Source of the DNA: Acidobacteria bacterium RIFCSPLOWO2_12_FULL_66_21 | GTDB lineage: Bacteria > Acidobacteriota > Vicinamibacteria > Vicinamibacterales > 2-12-FULL-66-21 | Reading direction: 5' to 3' | NCBI GenBank assembly: GCA_001767455.1 | Contig: MELC01000023.1 | Location: 41,531 to 75,818, forward strand | Length of the DNA stretch: 34,288 nt | Shown here: piece after piece, positions 2,546 through 31,016 of the stretch | Position numbering within the stretch: the first letter of the stretch is position 1 | How the letters are laid out: each line of letters starts with the position of its first letter | Program-made: the position numbers and the translations under genes | The notes under the pieces: generated by a model | What the model was told of the DNA's origin: nothing | Database searches by the model: none | Seen by the model: only the letters and a program-made list of their open reading frames with translations

Positions 2546-4120
2546 TCCCAAACACGTTATGGCTTACTCGTCGTTCTTCTGATCGGCGGCGCGCTGTCGG
2601 CACAGGCCCCGCGGTACGACGTGCTGATCGTCGGAGGGACGATCGTGGACGGGTCCGGCGGCCCGGGCCGGCGTGGTGACGTTGCGATCAAAGACGGGCG
2701 GATCGTGGCCGTCGGAGCCATCGACGCCGCCAGGGCCGCGACGACCATCGATGCGAAAGGGATGGTTGTCGCGCCGGGCTTCATCGACGTGCACACGCAC
2801 GCCGACGACATCGCGGAGCGCCCGCAGGCGGAGAACTTCGTCCGCATGGGCGTGACGACCGTCGTCGCCGGCAACTGCGGCGGGTCGGCGCTCGACATCG
2901 GCGAGGCGCTGGCGAAGATCAACGCCACGAGGGTCTCGGTCAACTACGCGACGCTCGTCGGCCACAACACGGTGCGGCGCGCCGTCATGGGCACGGCGGA
3001 TCGCGATCCCACGCTTCCGGAACTCGCGCAGATGAAGTCGCTGGTCTGGCGGGCCATGGCCGACGGCGCCGTGGGGTTCTCCACCGGCCTTCAATACGTT
3101 CCGGGGACGTATGCGAAGAGTCCAGAGATCATCGAGCTGGCACGGGTGGCCGCGAACGAGAACGGCATCTACGCGTCGCACATGCGCAACGAGGGCACCG
3201 CGCTCGAGGCATCGGTCGAAGAGACGATTCGCGTCGGCGAAGCGACCGGCGCGCGGGTCGAGATCTCTCACCTGAAGGTGGACAGCCCGAAGAACTGGGG
3301 CGCCAGCGCCAGGGCGCTCGCGCTCATCGACGTGGCGCGGACGCGCGGCATCGATGTCGAGGCCGACGAATACGCGTATACCGCGGCCAGCTCGAGCCTC
3401 GGCATCAGGTTTCCGGCGTGGGCGCTCGAGGGAGGGCAGGAGCAGATCGCCGCGCGCCTGAACGACGCCGCAACCTGGGAGAAGATCAAAGGCGAGATGC
3501 GCGGACTGCTCGCGGAACGCGGCCTCTCCGATCTCTCGTTCGCCGTCGTCGCCTCGCATCGGGCCGACCCGCTGCTCAACGGACTCTCCATCAAACAGAT
3601 CGCGGCGAAGCTGAAAGGATCCGAGACCGCCGATGCACAGCTCGAGACCGCCCGCGCGATGATGCTCGCCGGCGGCGCGTCCATGGTCTATCACTTCATG
3701 TCGGACGACGACGTCGAGCGGATCATGAGACATCCGCAGGTGGGCGTCGCGTCCGACAGCGGCGTCCTCGCCGCGGGGGCGGGCGTACCGCATCCACGCG
3801 GCTACGGCAACAACGCCCGCGTGCTCGGCGAGTACGTGCGCAAGCGGCACGTCATCTCCCTCGAGGAGGCGATCCGGAAGATGACGTCGCTCCCCGCAGA
3901 ACACTTCCGCTTCGCGAGGCGCGGGCTGCTGAAGGAGGGCTACGCGGCGGACGTCGTGGTCCTCGATCCCGCGAAGGTCGCGGATACCGCGACGTTCGAC
4001 AAGCCGCACAGCTACGCCACTGGGATCCCGTATGTGCTCGTCAATGGAGTGGCCGTGGTCGGCGCCGGTGCTCATACCGGCGCCCGTCCGGGCCGGACTC
4101 AGTCGCTCGTCGCGAAATAA
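2543..4120 (+). CDS. N-acyl-D-amino-acid deacylase (D-aminoacylase, amidohydrolase family)
   Basis: A 525-residue exported metallohydrolase that removes acyl groups from N-acyl-D-amino acids. ATG 2543 is chosen because it begins a normal signal peptide (MSQTRYGLLVVLLIGGALSA); a GTG nine bases earlier is possible. Visible hallmarks are YDVLIVGGTIVDGSG at the N-terminal beta-domain, the metal-binding GFIDVHTHADD (His about 84 and 86), the family-specific Cys in VVAGNCGGS (about 112), TGLQYVPG, SHMRNEG, EISHLK and VASDSG. The C-terminal beta-domain ends with ATGIPYVLVNGVAVV, typical of this family. Its 3' end overlaps by 22 bases the 3' end of the convergent anti-sigma gene. With the neighbouring symporter it suggests scavenging of D-amino-acid derivatives such as wall fragments; that link is inference. 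Confidence 0.92.
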   Translation: MSQTRYGLLVVLLIGGALSAQAPRYDVLIVGGTIVDGSGGPGRRGDVAIKDGRIVAVGAIDAARAATTIDAKGMVVAPGFIDVHTHADDIAERPQAENFVRMGVTTVVAGNCGGSALDIGEALAKINATRVSVNYATLVGHNTVRRAVMGTADRDPTLPELAQMKSLVWRAMADGAVGFSTGLQYVPGTYAKSPEIIELARVAANENGIYASHMRNEGTALEASVEETIRVGEATGARVEISHLKVDSPKNWGASARALALIDVARTRGIDVEADEYAYTAASSSLGIRFPAWALEGGQEQIAARLNDAATWEKIKGEMRGLLAERGLSDLSFAVVASHRADPLLNGLSIKQIAAKLKGSETADAQLETARAMMLAGGASMVYHFMSDDDVERIMRHPQVGVASDSGVLAAGAGVPHPRGYGNNARVLGEYVRKRHVISLEEAIRKMTSLPAEHFRFARRGLLKEGYAADVVVLDPAKVADTATFDKPHSYATGIPYVLVNGVAVVGAGAHTGARPGRTQSLVAK

Positions 4121-4605
4121 AGAGCGACTGGCGCGACGACGAGGCAGAGCACGAGCGTCGTCCATGCGAGCACGCTCGTGGGCGCCAGCGACTGCAAGGC
4201 AGTGAGGCCGGCGGGCGCGTGGACCGCGAGATCCTTGACGTCCGGGAGCGATGCCGCCCAGCCTCGCAACAGCGGCAGCGCGAACCCGCCGAATGCGGCA
4301 GCGAGCCCTGCCACGCAGGCGAAGGCGAGACCCTGGGCGACGACGATCGGACGCGCGGCGGAGCGGGCGGCGTCCTGGCGCGCGCGCATCTGGGCGCGCC
4401 ACCACATGACGGCGGACGTGGGGACCTCGGCCTCGACGCTCGCCGCTTCGTGTTCGCGCAGCAGCGGCAGCGCCACCGCGAGAACGTCCGCGCACACCTC
4501 GCATGACGCGACGTGCGCGCGCAGCTCCCCGTCCGAGCGATCCGGCCATCGATCGGAGGCGAGCGCGTCCAGCAGATCCCGTTCCCGCGCGCAGTCAGTT
4601 CTCAG
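4099..4605 (-). CDS. zinc-type membrane anti-sigma factor, apparent CTG start
   Basis: A 168-residue anti-sigma factor paired with the overlapping ECF sigma gene. The N-terminal cytoplasmic part has the H-x3-C-x2-C zinc anti-sigma signature, HVASCEVC, encoded around 4498-4515. Two TM helices follow (AQGLAFACVAGLAAAFGGFA and VLAWTTLVLCLVVAPVALYF), so it is an inner-membrane protein holding the sigma factor at the membrane. No ATG, GTG or TTG occurs in frame between the zinc motif and the upstream stop. The best start is CTG at 4605-4603, preceded by GAGGGAG six bases away, overlapping the sigma gene by 11 bases. A GTG at 4497 would delete the zinc motif, so it is rejected. The alternative CTG codons near 4575 have a weaker ribosome site. 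Confidence 0.8.
   Translation of the reverse strand: MRTDCARERDLLDALASDRWPDRSDGELRAHVASCEVCADVLAVALPLLREHEAASVEAEVPTSAVMWWRAQMRARQDAARSAARPIVVAQGLAFACVAGLAAAFGGFALPLLRGWAASLPDVKDLAVHAPAGLTALQSLAPTSVLAWTTLVLCLVVAPVALYFATSD
4100..4130. terminator. hairpin at convergent overlapping gene ends
   Basis: CAGTCGCTC (4100-4108) and GAGCGACTG (4122-4130) form a perfect 9-bp stem with a 13-base loop. It covers the stop codons of both the deacylase (+, ends 4120) and the anti-sigma gene (-, ends 4099). No T-run follows on either strand, so a classic intrinsic terminator is not proven. A shared bidirectional 3' stabilising hairpin is the modest reading. Confidence 0.45.
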
Positions 4606-5188
4606 GGCGCACTCCCTCGTCGGGCGCGTCGGCCCGCAGCAGCCCCGCCAGCTTCCGGCGGGCCCTGAACAGCAGCAGCTTGATGCTTCCCGTCGTCAGT
4701 CCGAGCGTCTCGCCAATCTCCCGGTGCGACGACCCCTGCGCGTACGCGAGCCAGAGCAGCTCGCGCTCGCGCGGTTTCAGCCGGCCGAACGCGCGCCGCA
4801 GATCCACGCGCTGCTCGGCGTGGCGCGCCACGTTCTCGTGCGACGGCAGCGCCGCGCAGTCGGTGTCGTCGATCCGGGAGTCGGTGGAGGCGGCGCGGCG
4901 GCGGTGCCGGTCGTGCACCAGGTTCGTCGCGATGCGGAAGAGGTAGTGGCGCCGGTGCGACTCGGATTCGTGCGCGACCCTGGCGCGCAGGAACCGGTAG
5001 TAGGTTTCCTGCAACAGGTCGTCGGCGACCTGGCGGTCGCCGGCGACCCGTGAGAGGTACACCCAGAGCGGTCTGGCGGTGCGGTCGTAGAAGGCGCGGA
5101 ACGCGTCTTCGTCCATCTCAAACGCAACTTCTCCGTCGTCGGCCTGTGCCTCGAGCCGTTCGAGTTCGGAGATCGTCACGTCACGCAT
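4595..5188 (-). CDS. ECF-family RNA polymerase sigma factor
   Basis: A 197-residue ECF (group 4) sigma factor that redirects RNA polymerase to stress or envelope promoters. Region 2 lies at about residues 27-95: FRAFYDRTARPLWVYLSRV, then ADDLLQETYYRFL (the DLLQET core-binding signature), and HYLFRIATNLVHDRHRR. Region 4 lies at about 135-180: LKPRERELLWLAYAQGSSH followed by the helix-turn-helix REIGETLGLTTGSIKLLLFR. ATG 5188 is chosen because it overlaps the upstream gene's TGA (ATGCGTGA); a further in-frame extension upstream reads as junk. It overlaps the anti-sigma gene downstream, so the three genes are translationally coupled. The linker between regions 2 and 4 is Asp/Ser-rich (STDSRIDDTD). 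Confidence 0.93.
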   Translation of the reverse strand: MRDVTISELERLEAQADDGEVAFEMDEDAFRAFYDRTARPLWVYLSRVAGDRQVADDLLQETYYRFLRARVAHESESHRRHYLFRIATNLVHDRHRRRAASTDSRIDDTDCAALPSHENVARHAEQRVDLRRAFGRLKPRERELLWLAYAQGSSHREIGETLGLTTGSIKLLLFRARRKLAGLLRADAPDEGVRPEN

Positions 5189-20213: not shown

Positions 20214-21377
20214 ATGTTCTCTTCCCGCGTTCCCGGCGAGCTGGCTCCCAATCGCCTGACGCTTGCGATCGCGCGCGCCCGGGCGGCGGAACGGACGATC
20301 CTCGATCTGACGATCGCCAATCCGACCGTCGCGGGCTTCGAGTATCCCGGATCATTGCTGAAGACGCTGGCGGATACGGCAGCGTTACGCTACGAGCCGC
20401 GGCCCTTCGGCCTTCCGCCGGCGCGCGCAGCGGTCGCGCGCGACTACGGGCGCCGAGGCGTGGCCGTGAACGCGGATCGGATCGTGCTGACAGCCAGCAC
20501 GAGTGAAGCCTACTCCCATCTATTCAAGCTGCTGTGCGAGGCGGCGCGGGACGCGGTGATGATCCCGGTTCCGAGCTACCCGCTCTTTGAGCATTTGACG
20601 CGCCTGGACGGCGTGGGGTGCATTCCCTATCGGCTGGATTACCACGGCCGATGGACGGTCGAGCTGGATGGCATCGACAGCGCGTGGACGGATCGCGTCC
20701 GCGCGGTGTTGGCGGTGAGTCCCAACAACCCGACCGGGTCGGTGCTGTCCGCACTGGAGGCGGATGAGCTTGCGCGCCGCTGCGCGGCGCGTGGCGCGGC
20801 GCTCATCCTCGATGAGGTCTTCGCGGATTTCCCGCTGGACGCCGGGAGAGCGGCGGACGCTTTGCAGCCGTGGCCGTGCCTCACGTTCCGGTTGGGCGGG
20901 CTGTCGAAGTCCGCCGGTCTCCCTCAGGTCAAGCTTGGATGGATGGCCGTCGAGGGACCGGACGCGCTCGTGTGCGAGGCGCTCGCGCGGCTCGAATTGA
21001 TCTGCGACACGTACCTGTCGGTGTCCACGCCCGTGCAGGTCGCGGCGCCGGCGTTGATTGCCGGCGGAGCCGCCGTGCGGCAGGCGATCCTGGCACGAGT
21101 CCGGGCGAACTACGCGGCGCTCTCGCGGCTGGCCGGGGCGTACCCCGCCGTCGACTTGCTGCACGCCGACGCGGGCTGGTCGGCGGTCATTCGAGTTCCC
21201 TCCACGCGTTCGGAAGAGGATCTCGTCCTCGAGCTGCTCGAGCGGGACGGCGTGCTCGTGCACCCCGGCTTCTTCTTCGACTTTCCACACGAGTCCTTCA
21301 TCGTCGTCAGCCTGCTCGCCGCGCCGGCGGCATTCGAGGAAGGCGTCCGACGCCTGCTGGAGCGTGCCGTTGCCTGA
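20214..21377 (+). CDS. PLP-dependent aminotransferase, class I/II
   Basis: A 387-residue fold-type I aminotransferase distinct from the one at 8262-9374. Motifs in order are LTASTSEAYSHLF (cofactor phosphate loop, about 92-104), SPNNPTGSVLS (Asn about 171), LILDEVFADF (Asp200), GGLSKSAGLPQVKLGW (Schiff-base Lys232) and a C-terminal HPGFFFDF segment. The substrate is unknown. There is no ribosome-binding site before ATG 20214; a short or absent leader is likely. Its last 8 bases overlap the TTG start of malQ, so the two are translationally coupled. The pairing of an aminotransferase with a glucan-transfer enzyme has no obvious metabolic explanation. Confidence 0.9.
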   Translation: MFSSRVPGELAPNRLTLAIARARAAERTILDLTIANPTVAGFEYPGSLLKTLADTAALRYEPRPFGLPPARAAVARDYGRRGVAVNADRIVLTASTSEAYSHLFKLLCEAARDAVMIPVPSYPLFEHLTRLDGVGCIPYRLDYHGRWTVELDGIDSAWTDRVRAVLAVSPNNPTGSVLSALEADELARRCAARGAALILDEVFADFPLDAGRAADALQPWPCLTFRLGGLSKSAGLPQVKLGWMAVEGPDALVCEALARLELICDTYLSVSTPVQVAAPALIAGGAAVRQAILARVRANYAALSRLAGAYPAVDLLHADAGWSAVIRVPSTRSEEDLVLELLERDGVLVHPGFFFDFPHESFIVVSLLAAPAAFEEGVRRLLERAVA

Positions 21378-22947
21378 GCCCCTCGGCTCCGGCCGCCACG
21401 CCGGCGTGCTCGTGCCGCTGTTCTCGATCCCGTCGCGGGCGAGCTGGGGCATCGGCGAGATCCCCGATCTGCCGCGGTTCGCGCGGTGGCTGCGCTCCGC
21501 GGGCCTCGACATCGTCCAGATCCTGCCGGTGAACGAGATGGCGGACGGGCAGAACTCGCCCTACTCCGCGCTGAGCGCGATGGCGACCGATCCGATTTAC
21601 ATTGCCGTCGGGGAGATCGAGGAGTTCAGGGCGGGCGGCGGCGAGGCGTCGCTGTCCGGAGAAGAGCGCGCCGCGCTCGCCGCCGTGCGGGGCGGAACGC
21701 GTGTCGACTACGGGCGCACGCGCGCCCTCAAGTCGCGCGCCCTGCGCGCGGCATTCGACTGCTTCGAGGGACACGAGTGGCGGACGAGATCGGCGCGAGC
21801 GGAATCATTCCGCGGCTTCATGCGCCGCGAGGCGTGGTGGCTCGAGGGGTACGCGGTGTTCAGGGCGCTGCATCGCGCGAACGACTCGCGCTACTGGATC
21901 GAGTGGCAGCCAGGCGAGCGCGAGCGCTCGCCCGAGGCGATCGAATCGGCGCGCGCGCGCATGGGGCGCGAGATCCTCTACGACTCGTGGCTGCAGTGGA
22001 TCGCCGATGAGCAGTGGCTGCGCGCCCGCGCGGAGTCGGCGCCGGTTCGCATCCTGGGCGACTTTCCGTTCATGGTCAGCGGCGACAGCGCCGACGTCTG
22101 GTGGCGGCAGGACGAGTTCCGCATCGACGCGTCGGTTGGCGTGCCGCCCGACGCGTTCTCCGAAACGGGGCAGGACTGGGGACTGCCCGCGTATCGCTGG
22201 GACGTCATCCGCGAGCGCGGCTACGAGTGGCTGCACCAGCGCGCCAGGCGCTCGGTCGAGTTGTACGACGGCTTCCGCCTCGATCATCTCGTCGGCTTCT
22301 ACCGGACGTTCATGCGGGAGGGCGACGGCCGGGCGCATTTCGAGCCGGCCGACGAGCCATCACAGCTCACGCAAGGCGAGCGCGTGCTCGGGGTCGTGCG
22401 CGAGACGGGCGCGTTCATCATCGCGGAGGACCTGGGAACGGTCCCGGATTTCGTCCGCGCGTCGCTCGCCCGTCTTGCCGTGCCCGGCATGAAGGTCATG
22501 CGCTGGGAGCGCGAGTGGGATGCCGAAGGACGCCCGTTTCGCGCACCGGCCTCGTACCCCGCGGTCTCGGTGGCCACCAGCGGCACGCACGACACGGAAA
22601 CGCTGGCGGAATGGTGGGAGGCGGCCGATCGCGACGAGCGCCAGAAAATCGCCGAGCTGGCGCCGCTTCGCGACGCCGGTCTGACCGCCGACGAGCCCTA
22701 CTCCGACCGCCTTCGCGACGCGCTGCTCGATGCGCTGTTCGGCGCCGGCTCCAATATCCTTCTCCTTCCACTCCAGGACATCTTCGGCTGGCGGGACCGC
22801 ATCAACATCCCGGCCGTCGTCGATCGCATCAACTGGACCTGGCGGCTGCCCTGGGCGGTAGACGACCTCGCTTCGGAGCCGCAGGCGTCTGAACGGGCGC
22901 GGTTTCTGCGCGAGCTCGGCGAGCGGCATGGGCGGGGGGAAACGTAG
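21370..22947 (+). CDS. malQ: 4-alpha-glucanotransferase (amylomaltase, GH77)
   Basis: A 525-residue cytoplasmic GH77 enzyme that transfers 1,4-alpha-glucan segments in maltodextrin and glycogen metabolism. Start TTG 21370 is chosen because GGAG ends seven bases upstream and the protein then begins just before HAGVLVPLFSIPSRASWGIG, the normal N-terminus. A GTG at 21364 is too close to the ribosome site. Catalytic features are DGFRLDHLVGFYR (nucleophile Asp305), FIIAEDLGTVPDF (acid/base Glu353) and SGTHDTETLAEWW (third Asp, about 408); NSPYSALSA and GDSADVWWRQDEF are also typical. The stop TAG 22945-22947 lies inside the first unit of a GTAGAA-type heptamer array, so the tail (RGET) may be repeat-encoded. 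Confidence 0.93.
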   Translation: MPEPLGSGRHAGVLVPLFSIPSRASWGIGEIPDLPRFARWLRSAGLDIVQILPVNEMADGQNSPYSALSAMATDPIYIAVGEIEEFRAGGGEASLSGEERAALAAVRGGTRVDYGRTRALKSRALRAAFDCFEGHEWRTRSARAESFRGFMRREAWWLEGYAVFRALHRANDSRYWIEWQPGERERSPEAIESARARMGREILYDSWLQWIADEQWLRARAESAPVRILGDFPFMVSGDSADVWWRQDEFRIDASVGVPPDAFSETGQDWGLPAYRWDVIRERGYEWLHQRARRSVELYDGFRLDHLVGFYRTFMREGDGRAHFEPADEPSQLTQGERVLGVVRETGAFIIAEDLGTVPDFVRASLARLAVPGMKVMRWEREWDAEGRPFRAPASYPAVSVATSGTHDTETLAEWWEAADRDERQKIAELAPLRDAGLTADEPYSDRLRDALLDALFGAGSNILLLPLQDIFGWRDRINIPAVVDRINWTWRLPWAVDDLASEPQASERARFLRELGERHGRGET

Positions 22948-23015: not shown

Positions 23016-23090
23016 GGCGCCCTTCCCCCACCTGACTGAAACATCCGGCGCGCTCCTGTGTTCGTCCAGTAGTGAGCGCAGGCAGCCGAC

Positions 23091-23105
23091 CACTCGGCAA
23101 TGACC
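23091..23105 (+). repeat. heptamer remnant containing the sigma start codon
   Basis: CACTCGGCAATGACC contains CTCGGCAATGAC, identical to the end of the TCGGCAA array at 13083-13133. The ATG in it (23100) is the start of the second ECF sigma gene. A weak ECF-like AAAC (23039-23042) and CGTC (23063-23066) lie upstream, but their spacing is too wide to claim a promoter. Confidence 0.45.
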
Positions 23106-23660
23106 GACACCGATCGGTTTGAGGCCTTCGTCCGCGAATTCCAGGACATGGTGTTCGCGACGGCCGTCCGCCTGCTCGGCGGCGCCGCCGAGGCGGAGGA
23201 CGTTGCGCAAACGGTGTTTCTGCGGGCGTTCGAGCGGTTCGACGCCGTCGGGACGAGTCCGCAGGCGGCGGGCTGGCTCAAGACCGTCGCCACGAACCTG
23301 TGCCTGAACTACCTGTCGCGCTACCGCGCGCGCTGGCAGTTCTTCAGCGAGCTCGATCCGCCGGCGGCCGGATCCCGCGCCGGCGTCTCGGACTCGTCCG
23401 GCTCGTTCGCGGCGTCGCTGGCGTCACCCGTGACGGCGATTGATCTGGACGAGGCGGATCGCCACGCCCGCCTGGAGCGGGCGTTGCGCGGACTGCCGGA
23501 TCATCAGCGCGTGCCGCTCGTCCTGTTTCACTTCGAGGCGATGAGCTACGACCAGATCGCGGCGGCGCTCGGCGTATCCCTGGGAAAGGTGAAGACGGAC
23601 ATCCATCGCGGCCGCGAGGCGTTGAAGAAGGAGTTGTCGATCCTTGATCGATCCCGTTGA
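23100..23660 (+). CDS. ECF-family RNA polymerase sigma factor
   Basis: A 186-residue ECF sigma factor. Region 2 (about 6-75) shows FEAFVREFQDMVFATAVRLL, EAEDVAQTVFLRAFERF and AAGWLKTVATNLCLNYLSRY. Region 4 (about 123-175) shows LRGLPDHQRVPLVLFHFEAM followed by the helix-turn-helix SYDQIAAALGVSLGKVKTDI. A Ser/Ala-rich linker separates the two. The start codon lies in a heptamer remnant and no clear ribosome site precedes it. The downstream membrane gene overlaps it by 17 bases and is presumably its regulator. It is a different subtype from the sigma factor at 4595-5188. Confidence 0.92.
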   Translation: MTDTDRFEAFVREFQDMVFATAVRLLGGAAEAEDVAQTVFLRAFERFDAVGTSPQAAGWLKTVATNLCLNYLSRYRARWQFFSELDPPAAGSRAGVSDSSGSFAASLASPVTAIDLDEADRHARLERALRGLPDHQRVPLVLFHFEAMSYDQIAAALGVSLGKVKTDIHRGREALKKELSILDRSR

Positions 23661-24054
23661 CCTGGAGCAGGTGCTCGATCGCGAGCTGAAGCAGCTTCCA
23701 CGGCCGCAGGCGCCACGGACGCTGCTGCCGCGCGTGATGGCGGCGGCGGGCCGGGCGCCCGCGCCGTGGTATCGGCGCCCGTGGATCGCGTGGCCGGCGG
23801 TCTGGCAAGTGGCTTCGGTGATCCTGATCGCGGGATTTGCCGGCGGTCTGGCATTTGTCCCCGTACCGTCACGCCTCGTCGATATCGGGCGGACGCTGAG
23901 CGGCGCGGCCGCGCTCATCCGCGTCGTCTCGCAGGTCTTCCTGCAGCCGATCGCCATGTATGTCCTGGTGCTGGCGATCTCGCTGTCGGTGGCCTGCGCC
24001 GCGCTCTGGTCCGCTCTCAATCGTTTCGCCTTTGGAGAGGCCTCACATCAATGA
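23644..24054 (+). CDS. putative membrane anti-sigma partner without zinc motif
   Basis: A 136-residue protein starting at TTG 23644, about ten bases after a GGAG in the sigma coding region. It has a short cytoplasmic N-terminus (IDPVDLEQVLDRELKQLPRP) and then two TM helices, about 52-72 (VWQVASVILIAGFAGGLAFV) and about 103-124 (IAMYVLVLAISLSVACAALW). No HxxxCxxC motif is present. Position and overlap with the ECF sigma gene, plus a soluble N-terminus long enough to hold a sigma factor, suggest an anti-sigma factor of non-zinc type; this is inference. It overlaps the next gene by ATGA at 24051-24054. Confidence 0.7.
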   Translation: MIDPVDLEQVLDRELKQLPRPQAPRTLLPRVMAAAGRAPAPWYRRPWIAWPAVWQVASVILIAGFAGGLAFVPVPSRLVDIGRTLSGAAALIRVVSQVFLQPIAMYVLVLAISLSVACAALWSALNRFAFGEASHQ

Positions 24055-25643
24055 GATGCAAACCGTCGCTCGCCGTCGCGCTCGCCTTTCCGCTGCTCCT
24101 GGCACTGAGCGGCAGTCTGTCGGCGGCGCAGCCGGAGGGCAAGATGCAGCCGGTGCGGCCGGCACGCCCGCCGTTCAAGGCGGTGGAGCCGCTGCCGCTC
24201 GAGCAACCGGATCGAAACTCACAGCGCGAGCCCGTGTTCCGAGTGCACCGTCCGGTCATCAGGGTCGGGCTGGACTACGTCGTCCCGGCTGGCACCGCGG
24301 TGTACGAGGTGCAGGATGTCCTGGGGGATGTGACGATCGACGGCCGGGTCGACCACGACGTGGTCGTGACCCTCGGATCCGCTCGCCTTGGCAGCACCGC
24401 TGTCATCAACGGTTCGCTCGTCGTGATCGGGGGAACGGCGACGATTGCCTCCGGCGCCCTGGTCCATCGCGATCTCATCGTGGTCGGCGGCGCGCTCGAG
24501 GCTCCCACGGATTTCTATCCGGACGGGACGCAGATGGTCATCGGCACCCCCGCCGTCGGGCGGGCGGTGAAGAGCGTGGTGCCGTGGTTGACGTGGGGCC
24601 TCCTCTGGGGACGCCTGATCGTGCCCAGCCTGGCGTGGGTGTGGGCGATCGTCGGGATCGTCTTGCTCGTCGGCCTGGCCGTCAACCTCGTCTTCAATCG
24701 TCCGGTGCGGGCGTGCGCGGACGCCATTCTGCAGAGGCCGCTCAGTTGCTTCCTTCTCGGGCTGTTCGTGCTGTTGCTGACGGTACCTGCGCTCGCGATC
24801 CTGGGCGCCTCGGTCATCGGCCTGGCCCTCGTGCCCTTCGTCCTGTGCGCCGTGATTGCCGCAGGCCTTGTCGGGAAGGTAGGGGTCGACCGGGCGATCG
24901 GCGGCACGGTCGTGACGGAGTCTTCGCCGGATAGCCGGTTCCAGTCCTTGCGATCCTTTCTGATCGGGTTTGCCGTGCTGTGCCTCGCGTACATGGTGCC
25001 GCTCGTCGGGATCGTGACCTGGGCGCTCACCAGCGTGCTCGGCCTCGGCGCGGCTGCAATCACGTTTCGCGTGGCGCTCAGAAAAGAGCATCCCGCACGC
25101 GCGCGAGTGCCGGAAGTCCGCGTGGCGCAGCCCGCCCCCGCTGCATATGCACAGGCTGTCTCAGCCGCGGAATTCGACGGGTCCGGGGTGCCGGTGGAGG
25201 CGGTGCCGGCGGAGGACGCGCCGGTCTCCGCTCCGCCGCTTGCGGCGGCCGGCCTCGCGGCATATCCGCGCGCGACCTTCCTCGACCGCGTTGCGGCCTT
25301 CGCGCTCGATTGCATTCTCGTGGCGATCGCGATCCAGGTGCTCGATCTCGATCATTACGGCGGCGCCTTCTTCCTGTGGCTCTTCGTGTATCACGCGGGC
25401 TTCTGGGCCTGGCGGGGAACGACGATGGGCGGGATCATCTGCGGCCTGCGGCTGACCCGCACGCAGGGAACCGATCTTCGCGTGATCGATGCCGTCGTGC
25501 GCGGCCTGGCGAGCGTTTTCTCGTTCGCCGCGCTCGGCATCGGCTGCCTGTGGATGCTGCAGGATCCCGAGCGCCAGATGTGGCACGACAAGATTGCCGG
25601 CACGCTCGTCGTGAAGGTGCCGCGACAGGTGCTGCTGGGGTAG
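24051..25643 (+). CDS. beta-helix (bactofilin-like) / multi-TM / RDD fusion membrane protein
   Basis: A 530-residue protein with an unusual domain order. A signal peptide (1-26) is followed by a proline-rich linker. A repeated short-strand region at about 85-165 (DVTIDGRVDHDVVVTLGSAR, INGSLVVIGGTATI, HRDLIVVGGALEA) has the periodicity of polymer-forming, bactofilin-like beta-helices. About four or five TM helices lie between 187 and 340. After a long Ala/Pro/Val-rich linker (350-405) comes a C-terminal RDD domain with the eponymous Arg413 (FLDRVAAFALDC), Asp420 and a late Asp in WHDKIAGT, plus three TM helices. It is the third gene of the second ECF operon, overlapping the previous one by ATGA. 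RDD domains are often linked to transport or ion exchange; the function here is unknown. Confidence 0.8.
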   Translation: MRCKPSLAVALAFPLLLALSGSLSAAQPEGKMQPVRPARPPFKAVEPLPLEQPDRNSQREPVFRVHRPVIRVGLDYVVPAGTAVYEVQDVLGDVTIDGRVDHDVVVTLGSARLGSTAVINGSLVVIGGTATIASGALVHRDLIVVGGALEAPTDFYPDGTQMVIGTPAVGRAVKSVVPWLTWGLLWGRLIVPSLAWVWAIVGIVLLVGLAVNLVFNRPVRACADAILQRPLSCFLLGLFVLLLTVPALAILGASVIGLALVPFVLCAVIAAGLVGKVGVDRAIGGTVVTESSPDSRFQSLRSFLIGFAVLCLAYMVPLVGIVTWALTSVLGLGAAAITFRVALRKEHPARARVPEVRVAQPAPAAYAQAVSAAEFDGSGVPVEAVPAEDAPVSAPPLAAAGLAAYPRATFLDRVAAFALDCILVAIAIQVLDLDHYGGAFFLWLFVYHAGFWAWRGTTMGGIICGLRLTRTQGTDLRVIDAVVRGLASVFSFAALGIGCLWMLQDPERQMWHDKIAGTLVVKVPRQVLLG

Positions 25644-25691: not shown

Positions 25692-27011
25692 ATGCGCATT
25701 CTGCAGCTGACCGGCGGCGCCGGGCGGATGTTCTGTGGGAGCTGTCTGCGCGACAACACGCTGGCGGCGGCGCTCTCGGCGCGCGGCCACGACGTCGTGC
25801 TGGTTCCCATGTACACGCCGACGCGCACCGATGAGCCGAACGTCAGCCTCGACCGTGTGTTCTTCAACGGCGTCACGGTGTACTTCGAGCAGCATTCCTC
25901 GATGTTCCGCCGCGCCCCCGCGTTCCTCGATCGCCTGTGGGACGCGAAATGGGTGCTCCGTCTGGCCGAGTCCCGGCAGATCGAAGTGGACGCGCGGAGC
26001 CTTGGAGCGATGACGGTGTCGGTGCTTCGCGGCGAGCGCGGATTCCAGCGCAAGGAGATCGTCAAGCTGGTCGAGTGGGTACGCGCGCAGCGCCCGTTCG
26101 ACGTCATCAATCTGCCGTACTCGCTGCTGCTGGGGCTTGTCGGGCCGCTCAAGCGGGCGTTCGGGGTGCCGATCGGCTGCACGCTGCAGGGGGAAGATCT
26201 CTTCATCGATCGGATCGGCGAGCCGTGGCGGAGCGAGGCGCTCGCGCTGATTCGCGACGCGAGCGTGCATGCCGACCGCTTCATGCCGGTGAGCCGCTTC
26301 TACATGGACCGCGCGCCGGGATACTTCGGCATTCCACGCGACAAGATGCGGCTCGCGCCGCTCGGCATCAACCTGGCCGGGCACGCTCGTCCCCGGTCCG
26401 CTCCCAACCCGGGGCCGTTCACTGTTGGGTACCTCGCGCGGCTGGCGCCGGAGAAGGGGCTGCACATCCTGTGTGAGGCGTACCGCCTCCTGCGCGCGTC
26501 CCCGGCCGCCGGCGCGTCGCGGCTCGTGGTGGCCGGGTATCTGGCGCCTGAGTACAGAGCGTACTTCGAGCGTATCAGCGCCAGCATGCGGGCATGGGGC
26601 CTGGGTGGACAGTTCGAGTACATTGGCGAACTCGATCGCGATCAGAAGATCGCGTTTCTGCGCAGTCTCGACGTGCTGTCCGTGCCCGCCACCTACGACG
26701 AACCCAAGGGGATCTTCCTGCTGGAGGCGATGGCCAACGGCGTGCCGGTCGTGCAGCCGCGACGCGGCGCGTTCACCGAGATCGTCGAAACGACGGGCGG
26801 CGGCATCCTGGTCGAACCGGACAATCCGGAGGCGCTCGCCGACGGCATCGCGACGCTGTGGCGCGATCCGGCGCTTCGATCGCGACTGGGCGAGATGGGC
26901 GCAGCCGGCGTGCGCGAGCACTACAGTGCCGAGCACATGGCGAAAGCCGTCGAGGCGGTGTACGCGGAAATGGCGGATGTCCGGCGGCCCGCGCTGAATG
27001 CTGAAGGCTAG
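25692..27011 (+). CDS. GT4-type glycosyltransferase with N-terminal CGSC motif
   Basis: A 439-residue GT-B glycosyltransferase, family 4-like. The N-terminal acceptor domain begins MRILQLTGGAGRMFCGSCLR, with a striking pair of cysteines (Cys15, Cys18) where most GT4 enzymes have only the Gly-rich acceptor loop. The C-terminal donor domain has VGYLARLAPEKGLHILCEAY and the E-x7-E nucleotide-sugar motif in YDEPKGIFLLEAMANG. It is cytoplasmic, possibly peripheral at the membrane. Donor and acceptor are unknown. Its stop overlaps the ABC ATPase gene by 14 bases, so it belongs to a GT/ATPase/permease unit. The Cys pair may bind metal or be redox-active; this is inference. Confidence 0.88.
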   Translation: MRILQLTGGAGRMFCGSCLRDNTLAAALSARGHDVVLVPMYTPTRTDEPNVSLDRVFFNGVTVYFEQHSSMFRRAPAFLDRLWDAKWVLRLAESRQIEVDARSLGAMTVSVLRGERGFQRKEIVKLVEWVRAQRPFDVINLPYSLLLGLVGPLKRAFGVPIGCTLQGEDLFIDRIGEPWRSEALALIRDASVHADRFMPVSRFYMDRAPGYFGIPRDKMRLAPLGINLAGHARPRSAPNPGPFTVGYLARLAPEKGLHILCEAYRLLRASPAAGASRLVVAGYLAPEYRAYFERISASMRAWGLGGQFEYIGELDRDQKIAFLRSLDVLSVPATYDEPKGIFLLEAMANGVPVVQPRRGAFTEIVETTGGGILVEPDNPEALADGIATLWRDPALRSRLGEMGAAGVREHYSAEHMAKAVEAVYAEMADVRRPALNAEG

Positions 27012-27690
27012 TCATCTCACGAAGTCATACCCCACCCCGCGTGGTGAGCTGCGCGTGCTGTCGGATGTCTCGCTCGGGCTGCAGCGCGGAGATGCCGCGT
27101 GCATCATGGGTCCGTCGGGGAGCGGGAAGAGCACGCTCCTTTATCTGCTCGGCGCGCTCGAGCCGCCATCCTCCGGCACCGTGACGCTGGACGGGCAGGA
27201 TCCGTATGCGCTCGGCGAGCGCGAGCAGTCGGCGTTCAGGAACCGTCGCATCGGGTTCGTGTTTCAGGATCACGCGCTGCTCCCGCAGTGCTCCGTGCTC
27301 GAGAACGTGCTCACGCCGACGCTGGTCGCGCCGCCGGCGGAGCGCGAGGCCGCGCGGGACGCCGATCGTGCGCGCGAGATCCTCGATCGCGTCGGCCTGT
27401 CGGATCGGCTGGACCACCGGCCCGGTGAACTGTCGGGGGGCGAGAAGCAGCGGGTCGCCCTCGCGCGCGCGCTGATCCGGGATCCGTTGCTGCTGCTGTG
27501 CGACGAGCCGACGGGCAACCTCGATAGCGCCTCGGCCGACGCCGTCGCCAGCCTCTTGCTCGACCTGCACGCCCGCAACCAGACCATTCTCGTCGTCGTC
27601 ACGCACAGCGCGCCGCTCGCGGCGCGTTTTGCGAGCCGGTACACCATCGAGGGCGGCCGGCTGACGCGCGACAGCGCCCGTGCGCAATGA
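26998..27690 (+). CDS. ABC transporter ATP-binding protein (LolD/MacB/YbbA type)
   Basis: A 230-residue ATPase. Walker A is MGPSGSGKST (Gly38-Ser45), the Q-loop is VFQDHALLP (Gln90), the signature is ELSGGEKQR (145-149), Walker B is LLLLCDEPTGNLD (Asp169, Glu170) and the switch His is in VVTHSA (His203). The short form with PTGNLD places it among the type VII, mechanotransmission-type exporters that work with FtsX/MacB-like permeases. ATG 26998 overlaps the glycosyltransferase stop. The next gene overlaps by ATGA at 27687-27690, so all three proteins are made from one message. Confidence 0.95.
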   Translation: MLKASHLTKSYPTPRGELRVLSDVSLGLQRGDAACIMGPSGSGKSTLLYLLGALEPPSSGTVTLDGQDPYALGEREQSAFRNRRIGFVFQDHALLPQCSVLENVLTPTLVAPPAEREAARDADRAREILDRVGLSDRLDHRPGELSGGEKQRVALARALIRDPLLLLCDEPTGNLDSASADAVASLLLDLHARNQTILVVVTHSAPLAARFASRYTIEGGRLTRDSARAQ

Positions 27691-30600
27691 CGCCGCTTCA
27701 CCTTGCGCTCCGGAGCGCGGCCTACTACTGGCGCACGAACGTCGTGGTGATGTCGGGCGTCGCGCTGGCGGTATCCGTGCTGGCGGGAGCGCTCCTCGTG
27801 GGCGATTCGGTCAGAGGCAGCCTGCACGACATCGCGGTCGGCCGGCTCGGGCGCGCCGACTACGCGGTGTCGTCCTCCGGGTTCTTTCGCGAAGGGCTTG
27901 CCGGTGACGTCGCCGGCGCGGATCTGCGCTCGGCACCCCTGATCGTCGTCCGTGGCGCCGTCACCGCCGACAAATCCCAGCGGCGTGCCGGTGACGTGCT
28001 CGTGTACGGCATCGACGCGCGCTTCTGGACTTTCCACGGTCTCGCCGCGGTGCAGGGCACGGTCCTGTCGCCGGCGCTCGCTTCCGAGCTGGGACTCAGC
28101 CCCGGGGACGACCTGTTGATTCGCCTGCAGAAGCCGGCGGCGATCCCGATTGAGTCGCTGTTCGGGAGGAAAGAAGACATCGGCCGCACGCTGCGACTGA
28201 CCGCGGCGGCGGTCGAACCACGCGAGCGGCTTGGGGAATTCGCGCTCAGCCCGCAGCAGTCGGAGGTGCGCGCGGTGTTCGCGCCGCTCCGGCGAGTCCA
28301 GCGCGATCTCGGCGTCGCCGGGCGCGTGAATACGGTTCTTCTCGCAAGCGGGTCCGGAGACGCCGCGGTGGAAGCGCAAGTCGGCGCCGCCCTCCAGCTC
28401 GAGGATCTCGGCATCTCGGTGTCTGTGAGCGAGGATGCCCGCGCAGTCATCATCGAGAGCGCCGCGGGCATTCTCTCGCCGTCCATCGAATCGGCCGCGC
28501 GTGCCGCGGTGAGTGCGGCGGGCGCCCGAGTGGTGCCCGTGTTCACTTACCTTGCGAATACCCTCCGGCGGGGCAACCGGCAGATCCCCTACTCGCTGAT
28601 CACGGCGATCGACGTCGCCGCACTTCCGGCTTCAGCCAGTTCGTCGCAGCCCAGTCCCCCGGATCCGATCGTGCTCAACGAGTGGACGGCGCGCGAGCTG
28701 GGTGCGGGGCCAGGCGATCGGGTAGAAGTCGATTACTACCGATGGGATGCGCAGGAGGGACTGACGACCCACACGGCGTCGTTTACCGTCGATCGCGTCA
28801 TCCCCATCGCGGGTGTCGCCGCGGACGTGCGGCTCGCTCCCATCTACCCCGGCGTCACCACCGCGGCAAGCCTGGCCGACTGGGATCCGCCATTCCCCAT
28901 CGATCTGTCGCGGATTCGTCCGGCGGACGAGCGGTACTGGGGCGAGTACCGCACGACGCCGAAGGCCTTCATTCCGTTCGAGCGGGGTCGGGACCTGTGG
29001 CAATCGCGGTACGGCGCCGTGACGTCCATTCGCGTGCCCGTCGATCCCGAAGCGGCCGCGCAAACGGCCGCTCGCCTGGACGGGGATATGCGGCGGTCGC
29101 TCGGTTCACAATCAGCGGCGATCGGCGTGTTGCCCGTGCGACGGCTGTCGATCGCGGCATCCCGGGGCTCCACCGACTTCAGCGAGTACTTTCTCTATTT
29201 CAGCGTGCTGCTCGTCGTCTCGGCGATCTTGCTCGTGGTCGTGTTCTTCCGGCTTGGGATCGAGCAGCGGCTGCGCGACATCGGCATCCTGCGGGCGACC
29301 GGCTTTTCCGCCGGCGGCGTGCGGCGGCTCTTCCTGGTCGAATCCATCGCGCTCGCGGTCGCCGGATCCATCATCGGGATGGCCGGCGCGGCCCTGTACG
29401 CGTGGCTCGTCGTGCACGGGCTGCGCACCTGGTGGGCCGGCGCGGTCGGGACAACGCGGCTCGATATCCACCTGTCGTGGCTGTCGGTCGTGATCGGCGG
29501 CGCCGCCGGGACCATCGCCTCGGTCGCGTCGGTCGGGCTCTCGCTCCGGACGGTCGCGCGCATGTCGCCGCGCGCCCTTCTGCACGCGCGCAGTCTGGAG
29601 TCGCGCGGCCCGGGAGCGGCCCGGCAGACCCGCCGCGCGCAGCTCGCCGGCGCGATCCTCGCGGCATCCGCCGCCTCGATGATTGCCGCGGCATTTATCA
29701 TCCGCGGATACGAGACGGGCCTCTTCTTTGGATCCGGCGCGGCGCTCGTCGGCGCGTGCCTGTGCTTCCTCTCGGCATCGCTCGGTTCGACACGCAGACG
29801 GGCCGCCGTGGGACGCGGCGCGTGGGCGCTGTGCCGCCTCGGGTTCCGCGGCGCCGCCTTTCGCCGGACGCGAGCCGTTTCCAGCGTGGCGCTCATCGCG
29901 TCCGCGGTGTTCGTCGTTGTTTCGGTCGGAGCATTTCGTCATGGCGCCCGCCCGCCTCAGGGCGACCGCGCGTCGGGGACCGGCGCGTTCGCGCTGCTCG
30001 CACGATCCGGGCTGCCTCTCGTGCACGATCCGAACACCACGCAAGGCCGGCAGGCGCTGGGTGTCGGCTCATCGGATCTCTCGCGCGTGCGGTTCACCCG
30101 GTTCCGAGAGCGCCGAGGGGACGATGCGAGTTGCCTGAATCTGTACCGGCCGGCAAGTCCGACCATCGTCGCGCCCGAAGGGCGGTTCATCGACGAAGCG
30201 CGGTTCTCGTTCGCCGCATCCGTTGCCGCCACGGAGGAAGAGAAGAGGAACCCGTGGATCCTTCTGCGCGGGGCGAATCGCGCCGATGCGATTCCGGTCA
30301 TTGCCGACGCGACGTCGCTCGAGTACGTCCTGCACGCCTCGGTTGGCGACACGCTCGCGTTTGACGCGGCTGACGGCCAGCCGCTGCGCCTCCAGGTCGT
30401 GGGGGCCCTGCGCGACAGCGTGCTGCAAGGGGAGCTCGTGATGTCGGAAGAGCACTTCGTGACCCGGTTCCCGGCCGTGCAGGGCTACAGGTTCTTTCTG
30501 ATAGAGGCGCCGGACGCGCGCGGTGAAGCTGACGAGGCGGCCATTGCGGAGAGAGTCGAGCAGGAGTTCGCGCCGTTCGGGATGGACGCGGTCGCCACTG

Positions 30601-31016
30601 CAGACCGCCTCGCGGCTTTCCACCGCGTCGAAGACACGTACTTGTCCACTTTCCAGGCGCTCGGCGGGCTCGGCCTGGTTCTCGGGACGTTCGGGCTCGG
30701 CGCGCTGATGTTCCGCAACGTGCTCGAGCAGCGGCGCGAGCTGGCGGTGCTCGGCGCCGTCGGCTATCGCCCGCGGGACATCTCACTCGTGATGCTGGCC
30801 GAGGCCGCGCTGCTCGTATTCGCGGGACTCGGGACAGGCACTCTGTGCGCCGCGATCGCGGTCGCTCCGGCGTGGCTCCATCGCGGCGCCGTTCGTCCCG
30901 GACTCGACCTGGCGCTGCTGCTGGCCGGCGTGGCCTGCGCCGGGCTACTGTCATCGCTCATCGCGACGCGCGCCGCGCTGCGCGGCAAGCTTCTAACCGC
31001 GCTGCGAGAGGAGTAG
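27687..31016 (+). CDS. giant tandem FtsX/MacB-type ABC permease (YbbP-like)
   Basis: An 1109-residue inner-membrane permease made of two MacB_PCD-FtsX units. TM1 (about 19-40) is followed by a very large periplasmic region (about 45-498). Next come the first FtsX block (TMs about 503-525, 547-576, 598-620; cytoplasmic coupling segment RLRDIGILRATGFS), two middle helices (about 653-700) and a further TM at about 731-750. After a second periplasmic domain comes the last FtsX block (about 989-1100, RRELAVLGAVGYRPRDISLV). Ten TM segments in a tandem layout recall E. coli YbbP, but this protein is about 300 residues longer, mainly from the first periplasmic part. Such permeases move lipoproteins, lipids or peptides, or remodel the envelope; the cargo is unknown. 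Confidence 0.9.
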   Translation: MTPLHLALRSAAYYWRTNVVVMSGVALAVSVLAGALLVGDSVRGSLHDIAVGRLGRADYAVSSSGFFREGLAGDVAGADLRSAPLIVVRGAVTADKSQRRAGDVLVYGIDARFWTFHGLAAVQGTVLSPALASELGLSPGDDLLIRLQKPAAIPIESLFGRKEDIGRTLRLTAAAVEPRERLGEFALSPQQSEVRAVFAPLRRVQRDLGVAGRVNTVLLASGSGDAAVEAQVGAALQLEDLGISVSVSEDARAVIIESAAGILSPSIESAARAAVSAAGARVVPVFTYLANTLRRGNRQIPYSLITAIDVAALPASASSSQPSPPDPIVLNEWTARELGAGPGDRVEVDYYRWDAQEGLTTHTASFTVDRVIPIAGVAADVRLAPIYPGVTTAASLADWDPPFPIDLSRIRPADERYWGEYRTTPKAFIPFERGRDLWQSRYGAVTSIRVPVDPEAAAQTAARLDGDMRRSLGSQSAAIGVLPVRRLSIAASRGSTDFSEYFLYFSVLLVVSAILLVVVFFRLGIEQRLRDIGILRATGFSAGGVRRLFLVESIALAVAGSIIGMAGAALYAWLVVHGLRTWWAGAVGTTRLDIHLSWLSVVIGGAAGTIASVASVGLSLRTVARMSPRALLHARSLESRGPGAARQTRRAQLAGAILAASAASMIAAAFIIRGYETGLFFGSGAALVGACLCFLSASLGSTRRRAAVGRGAWALCRLGFRGAAFRRTRAVSSVALIASAVFVVVSVGAFRHGARPPQGDRASGTGAFALLARSGLPLVHDPNTTQGRQALGVGSSDLSRVRFTRFRERRGDDASCLNLYRPASPTIVAPEGRFIDEARFSFAASVAATEEEKRNPWILLRGANRADAIPVIADATSLEYVLHASVGDTLAFDAADGQPLRLQVVGALRDSVLQGELVMSEEHFVTRFPAVQGYRFFLIEAPDARGEADEAAIAERVEQEFAPFGMDAVATADRLAAFHRVEDTYLSTFQALGGLGLVLGTFGLGALMFRNVLEQRRELAVLGAVGYRPRDISLVMLAEAALLVFAGLGTGTLCAAIAVAPAWLHRGAVRPGLDLALLLAGVACAGLLSSLIATRAALRGKLLTALREE

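Follow-up and report, generated by a model that had tools for sequence, protein, structure and literature searches.

The window analysed here is a stretch of 34,288 nucleotides from the 6.5-Mb genome of Acidobacteria bacterium RIFCSPLOWO2_12_FULL_66_21 (contig MELC01000023.1, positions 41,531 to 75,818; G000:C23:41531-75818). At 23100-25643 it carries a compact operon of three genes, which encode an extracytoplasmic function (ECF) sigma factor, a zinc-less partner protein with two transmembrane (TM) helices, and a 530-residue fusion protein in which a predicted signal peptide, a strand-repeat domain and several TM helices are joined to an RDD domain. A sequence-only reading of this DNA had described these parts, all of which were found where it placed them, and had suggested that the third protein is the output or sensor of the ECF system. 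The features of the operon are as follows.

23037..23063, + strand: predicted autoregulatory ECF promoter, TGAAAC-N15-GTGTTC (fixed-spacing motif in 19/21 homologous regions, window included)
23100..23660, + strand: ECF sigma factor of 186 residues with regions 2 and 4 (Sigma70_r2, Sigma70_r4_2, TIGR02937; 13 relatives)
23644..24054, + strand: two-TM zinc-less partner, putative anti-sigma factor of 136 residues with a TTG start (lies between sigma and fusion in 13 relatives and 7 further loci)
24051..25643, + strand: fusion protein of 530 residues, with signal peptide, beta-helix, multi-TM core, cytoplasmic linker and RDD domain (predicted from Pfam, alignment, hydropathy and charge)
24051..24128, + strand: predicted signal peptide, residues 1-26, with cleavage-like SAA|Q ([AVST]xAQ motif)
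24252..24560, + strand: bactofilin-like beta-helix domain, residues 68-170, predicted to be extracytoplasmic (single-sequence AlphaFold2 model, VIA-align, weak PF04519)
24558..25100, + strand: multi-TM core, residues 170-350, with about five predicted TM helices (profile A5, hydropathy, alternating lysine plus arginine counts)
25260..25640, + strand: RDD domain, residues 404-530 (PF06271 in 14/14; R413, D420 and D513 identical in 14/14)

The sigma and partner genes overlap by 17 bases, and the partner and fusion genes by 4. The fusion's ATG sits inside a longer mechanical open reading frame (ORF; 23766-25643), and a start codon yielding the identical 4-base overlap is present in 13 of 14 sequences (window and relatives), a count for which the choice of start favoured that overlap. 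The sigma protein matches Pfam Sigma70_r2 (E 6.6e-13) and Sigma70_r4_2 (E 3e-15) and has no other Sigma70 region, the arrangement of an ECF sigma factor; it also exceeds the cut-off of TIGR02937 (78.2 bits, cut-off 42.9), and its 13 relatives share 59-68% identity. Its score with the SigW model is below the cut-off (94.6 bits versus 209), and orthology to sigma-W is thus unsupported by that model.

Two hydrophobic helices (residues 56-74 and 103-121) are present in the partner protein, behind an N-terminus of about 50 residues that bears a conserved LxxLPxPxAPxTLxPRV-like motif and in which two short helices could fit. The Hx3Cx2C motif is absent from its sequence, as the sequence-only reading had indicated in calling it zinc-less. 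The partner has no Pfam match at E ≤ 1, and no Pfam family is common to its 14 members. According to a published account (PMC7406223), a recognisable ASDI domain defines a class I anti-sigma factor, the zinc motif being optional. A phage origin was ruled out for the partner and the fusion, as neither has a PHROGs match at E ≤ 0.01.

The hydrophobic N-terminus of the fusion carries an SAA|Q signal-peptidase-like site, and 12 of the 14 fusion proteins (window and 13 relatives from the same taxonomic order) have an [AVST]xAQ motif of this kind within their first 80 residues. Strand repeats follow at about residues 68-165, and hydropathy indicates five hydrophobic helices between residues 197 and 343. 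The only Pfam family in the window fusion is RDD (PF06271, residues 439-517, 56.6 bits, cut-off 24.1), which is matched by all 14 members; no NCBIfam family scores above its cut-off. Full-length alignment of the 14 proteins has 55 invariant columns, among them R413, D420 and D513, which we take to be the three conserved residues of the RDD family, as well as R467 and R484. A relative on an 'Acidobacteria bacterium' contig, 63% identical over fusion residues 377-529, was met in a scan with six short peptide patterns (one partial locus). The genome encodes another RDD protein (L002:40-1920; G000:C91), with an apparent N-terminal zinc-ribbon-like CxxC...CxxC segment.

Positive charges alternate between the loops of the fusion in a pattern that puts the strand domain outside and the linker at 344-413 inside. 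From hydropathy, charge counts and the signal-peptide pattern, and with one RDD helix (440-458) assigned manually, the fusion is predicted to be an inner-membrane protein whose strand domain faces the periplasm. The sequence-only reading had put the strand region outside the inner membrane and spoken of a surface scaffold; the predicted location agrees with the former, and 'surface' is too strong a word for it. A cytoplasmic bactofilin was ruled out by the same predicted topology. The window genome encodes a separate true bactofilin, as likewise do 58 of 60 genomes searched.

In a single-sequence AlphaFold2 (AF2) model, residues 63-172 form 11 strands, and the rungs are spaced by 18-19 residues (predicted local distance difference test, pLDDT, 81.9; predicted template modelling score, pTM, 0.75); this is the one confident model of five made for the beta-domain (pLDDT of the others 52.1, 35.8, 35.2 and 33.4). 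The predicted domain is accordingly a beta-helix, as the earlier reading had expected of the strand region. When VIA-align was run on 98 Foldseek candidates, three solved bactofilin entries ranked first, with Z 12.4 for 6ria (rmsd, root-mean-square deviation, 2.0; 88 aligned), 12.2 for 6rib and 10.1 for 2n3d (BacA), followed by an entry at Z 9.7 and rmsd 11.8; the VIA-align guide for repeat proteins is that Z below about 13 may mean just a common arrangement, and 12.4 is slightly below. The Foldseek top match was a Thermus bactofilin (E 0.92, not significant), and AF2 may lean on bactofilins from its training. From a full-length AF2 model of the fusion (pLDDT 50.9, pTM 0.31), only the presence of strands in the region of the beta-domain was taken.

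At the level of sequence, PF04519 was matched weakly by 6 of the 14 fusion members (best E 0.0034), and the window fusion, with no PF04519 match at E ≤ 1, falls short of the Pfam gathering cut-off for a bactofilin. Comparison by hhalign with 20 local bactofilins gave 18% probability (E 0.0013) for a stretch of 28 columns. When solved chains were searched with a profile, 21 sequences had E ≤ 1, presumably mostly beta-helix proteins, of which 3r1w was best (E 0.0049) and bactofilins had E 0.23 and 0.28. Hexapeptide acyltransferases or carbonic anhydrases topped this search, yet the three bactofilins lead the structural comparison, and an identity of this kind was rejected; repeats common to beta-helices may account for these matches. 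Thus, as modelled, the strand domain is bactofilin-like in fold and is not a bactofilin.

Besides the window, 24 fusion loci were examined (15 and 9 in two sets, with matches at contig ends in G008 and G111 left out), and in 20 of these (13 and 7) the sigma and partner genes are directly upstream of the fusion gene, so the grouping of the genes is no accident. Five of the set of seven come from outside the class of the window genome, four in family f37 (genus g126) and one in family f44. The remaining four loci are a rearranged one (L040) and three at contig ends (L043, L145 and L148, with only the end of the partner visible in L145). To judge by these sequences, the three genes stay together both within the order and in further classes of the phylum. 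Of 193 genomes of the class, 20 have the TM core (profile A5, E ≤ 1e-10), which is thus patchy in its distribution. Chance neighbourhood or a wrongly called fusion was ruled out, as the three genes occur together and the fused frame is free of stops in all 14 aligned members. In the rearranged locus (L040:1977-3361, G032) and in L172, an apparent internal deletion joins the start of the sigma gene to the end of the fusion's beta-helix, with the promoter motif kept; the deletion in L040, whose contig is long enough, is apparently either real decay or an assembly fault.

A search of the phylum matched some part of the fusion in at least 288 of 396 genomes, many of them to RDD or strand repeats alone. 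Among the matches listed, 33 loci with a strand domain and no RDD were picked by hand (L045, at a contig end, was left out), and in 24 of these an ECF sigma ORF lies upstream on the same strand, at most 1.8 kb from the strand domain. The corresponding figure for ordinary bactofilin loci is 0 of 31, with 1.5 kb searched on each side and less at contig ends. Co-occurrence with ECF genes, which the sequence-only reading had proposed to check, therefore extends beyond the fusion itself. One RDD-less operon is a paralog in the window genome (G000:C70, L046:2452-4982), with a sigma gene at 2452-2994, a two-TM protein at 3121-3639 and an exported strand-domain/TM protein at 3636-4982. In a midpoint-rooted FastTree of the sigma factors, from which the opposite-strand sigma of L152 was dropped, those of the 21 fusion operons form one clade (support 0.902) with none of the 24 RDD-less ones inside; on this single clade, the module seems to have acquired RDD a single time.

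In 19 of 21 loci, several of which are close relatives and not independent cases, the sigma gene is preceded by a motif of TGAAAC or TGCAAC (once CGAAAC), 15 bases and G[GT]GT; two more loci (L029 and L131) have it with a spacer of 16. The range searched was 250 bases upstream to 60 downstream of the sigma start, which in L147 was moved to the sigma domain. Dinucleotide shuffles gave a mean of 0.04 loci with the motif and a maximum of 1 in 300. The strict consensus had 9 sites in 7 of the 162 genomes of the order (control 1), and the operon is present in five of these seven; the sites in G124 and G125 (L194 and L195) differ little from each other and may lie in coding sequence. The general pattern had 19 sites in 12 of 17 operon-bearing genomes (including G032 with its rearranged copy), of which 10 are the operon's own; the reversed control had 3. 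Among the nine other sites, three precede HlyD/MacA-type adaptors (in G051, identified in Pfam, and in G066 and G021, by similarity), and single sites precede an exported PIG-L deacetylase (G051, L169), a DUF4097 toastrack protein (G066, L185) and, by our reading of the sequence, an FtsX-like permease (G014). Three have no convincing gene after them (G021 L171, G042 L183, G016 L179). An adaptor regulon spanning the order was ruled out, as the site is present in 3 of the 8 genomes with a close adaptor.

This promoter-like motif, with its fixed spacing in 19 of 21 loci, makes the fusion very likely an output of its own sigma factor, which is one of the two roles first suggested for it. The sigma factor would drive its own operon and a few other genes, and the fusion would thus be a principal product. 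The adaptor targets in three genomes of one family hint, by analogy, at an envelope-stress response like that of Bacillus sigma-W, and from the extra targets and the RDD domain, which resemble the sigma-W response, we infer an envelope-stress switch. The reading that we tentatively favour, as a possible one, is an autoregulated envelope-stress module in which the fusion would be both a membrane-protecting effector and a feedback component that recaptures the sigma factor through the partner. At rest, the sigma factor would be held at the membrane by the short cytoplasmic N-terminus of the partner. Membrane or periplasmic stress would release it to transcribe its own operon and a few other genes (in some relatives those for an HlyD/MacA-type adaptor, a DUF4097 protein and others). 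Synthesis of the fusion would follow, and the protein would enter the inner membrane with the beta-helix outside and the linker before the RDD domain inside, there to protect the membrane as an effector that probably oligomerises. With its translation coupled to that of the partner, it may also provide the feedback by which the partner recaptures the sigma factor, a third-component logic known from LiaF or RseB.

Several observations weigh against this reading. None of the 14 partner members matches an anti-sigma family in Pfam, and binding between partner and sigma is presumed, which makes the partner a putative anti-sigma factor. Gene order and coupling are what suggests feedback by the fusion on the partner, and hydropathy and charge counts, with the one hand-placed helix, are what suggests the topology. 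Nine of the 33 RDD-less loci have no detected ECF gene (L134, L136, L152, L157, L158, L159, L161, L162 and L165). The general promoter pattern has no match in the window genome, where the operon's own site at 23037-23063 departs from the consensus (TGAAACAT, GTGTTC); a pattern allowing one mismatch finds one site there, elsewhere than at the operon (L187), and the operon site is recovered only by a pattern fitted to it, of which it is the only match in that genome. Conversely, G124 and G125 carry an exact consensus site, and the fusion was not found in them. The adaptor site is confined to family f11 and is absent in the other five genomes with a close adaptor (G014, G027, G034, G037 and G055); at E ≤ 1e-40, no close adaptor was found in the window genome.

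The fusion's place as third gene behind the promoter-like motif, and the effector-like appearance of the identifiable extra targets, would also suit an effector pure and simple, a scaffold in the periplasm or a stabiliser of the membrane that is induced by stress and takes no part in sigma control, the partner alone being the sensor. We consider this rather unlikely, since ECF pairing recurs without RDD and with a different sigma lineage, which suggests coupling beyond co-expression. Alternatively, the beta-helix could detect a periplasmic ligand or the state of the envelope and pass the signal on to the partner by way of the TM core, in the manner of CnrX or RseB. The predicted periplasmic domain, the conserved gene order and the 4-base coupling to the partner are consistent with this sensor role, which we nevertheless judge unlikely: a ligand pocket or partner interface was not identified, and a sensor would be needed before stress yet depends on its own induced promoter, though basal expression could suffice.

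The conservation of R413, D420, D513, R467 and R484 in all 14 fusion proteins might reflect transport, with the RDD part a monovalent cation/H+ antiporter and the beta-helix an accessory; antiport is reported for a Halobacillus RDD protein (PMC5996927). The SppI protein of Bacillus subtilis, however, has the same conserved residues and inhibits the SppA protease (PMC7568657), and the RDD-less form retains an ECF gene, which rules out RDD transport as the central function of the module; a transporter is therefore highly improbable. A bolder idea, which we regard as a long shot, is that the exported bactofilin-type fold forms a polymer in the periplasm, built under stress and anchored to the inner membrane, whose state of assembly is read by the anti-sigma partner through the TM core and RDD domain. 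If so, a cytoskeleton-like scaffold would be both the product and the gauge of the response, and the RDD-less form would extend this to a phylum-wide class of scaffold-reporting sigma switches.

The module links RDD domains, extracytoplasmic bactofilin-like beta-helices and two-TM anti-sigma candidates, all of which are poorly understood. Because few promoter sites beyond the operon's own were found, the role of the fusion could be addressed by one deletion and one promoter reporter, and the association in 24 of the 33 hand-picked RDD-less loci means that the result would help to annotate unexplained genes of the phylum.

The operon is flanked upstream by a 4-alpha-glucanotransferase within ORF 21058-22947 (PF02446, 1.6e-120) and downstream by a glycosyltransferase (25692-27011). 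Directly downstream of the latter, at 26998-31016, are an ATP-binding cassette (ABC) ATPase and then a 1109-residue FtsX-type permease.

No description of such a module or architecture was found among the matches listed in the literature searches, in keeping with the sequence-only reading, although the groups of the 2021 ECF classification, outside the search, may list the sigma factor or operon. Nothing was found on RDD together with bactofilin and sigma factor, or on RDD domain and polymer-forming. To judge by titles and abstracts, publications on RDD and ECF describe no such module, and by their titles those on bactofilin and anti-sigma are unrelated. The term polymer-forming cytoskeletal is absent among the matches listed in a broader search, and RDD, bactofilin and Acidobacteria do not occur in the 2021 ECF review (PMC8103513).

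Like the bactofilins (PF04519), the window protein has a modelled beta-helix, for which the solved bactofilins are the closest structures, but it differs in lacking recognition by Pfam and in being predicted to expose this domain outside the membrane, whereas bactofilins are on the cytoplasmic side. It is also reminiscent of LiaF and toastrack (DUF4097) proteins, stress-response proteins that combine TM helices with a strand-rich repeat domain outside the cytoplasm, although no Pfam model of either was matched by the 14 fusion members at E ≤ 1. With systems of an ECF sigma factor and a membrane anti-sigma factor (class I, or class II of the CnrY type), the operon shares sigma regions 2 and 4, a short N-terminal segment of the partner before the TM helices, and a promoter-like motif before the sigma gene; it differs in a partner with two TM helices and without a Pfam anti-sigma family, and we know of no such third gene in these systems.

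The -35 element of sigma-W is of the TGAAAC type, as in the motif of the operon, and YknX of Bacillus is MacA-like. Both sppA-yteJ and yknWXYZ belong to the sigma-W regulon of B. subtilis (PMC3498285), whereas few sites beyond the operon's own were found here. YteJ is SppI, the inhibitor of a protease that acts in antimicrobial-peptide resistance, and is an RDD protein likewise under an ECF sigma factor (PMC7568657). The fusion belongs with the RDD family (PF06271), scoring above the cut-off of its model and conserving the R, D and D residues, but in it the RDD domain is the C-terminal part of a fusion with a predicted exported beta-helix, encoded together with its own sigma gene.

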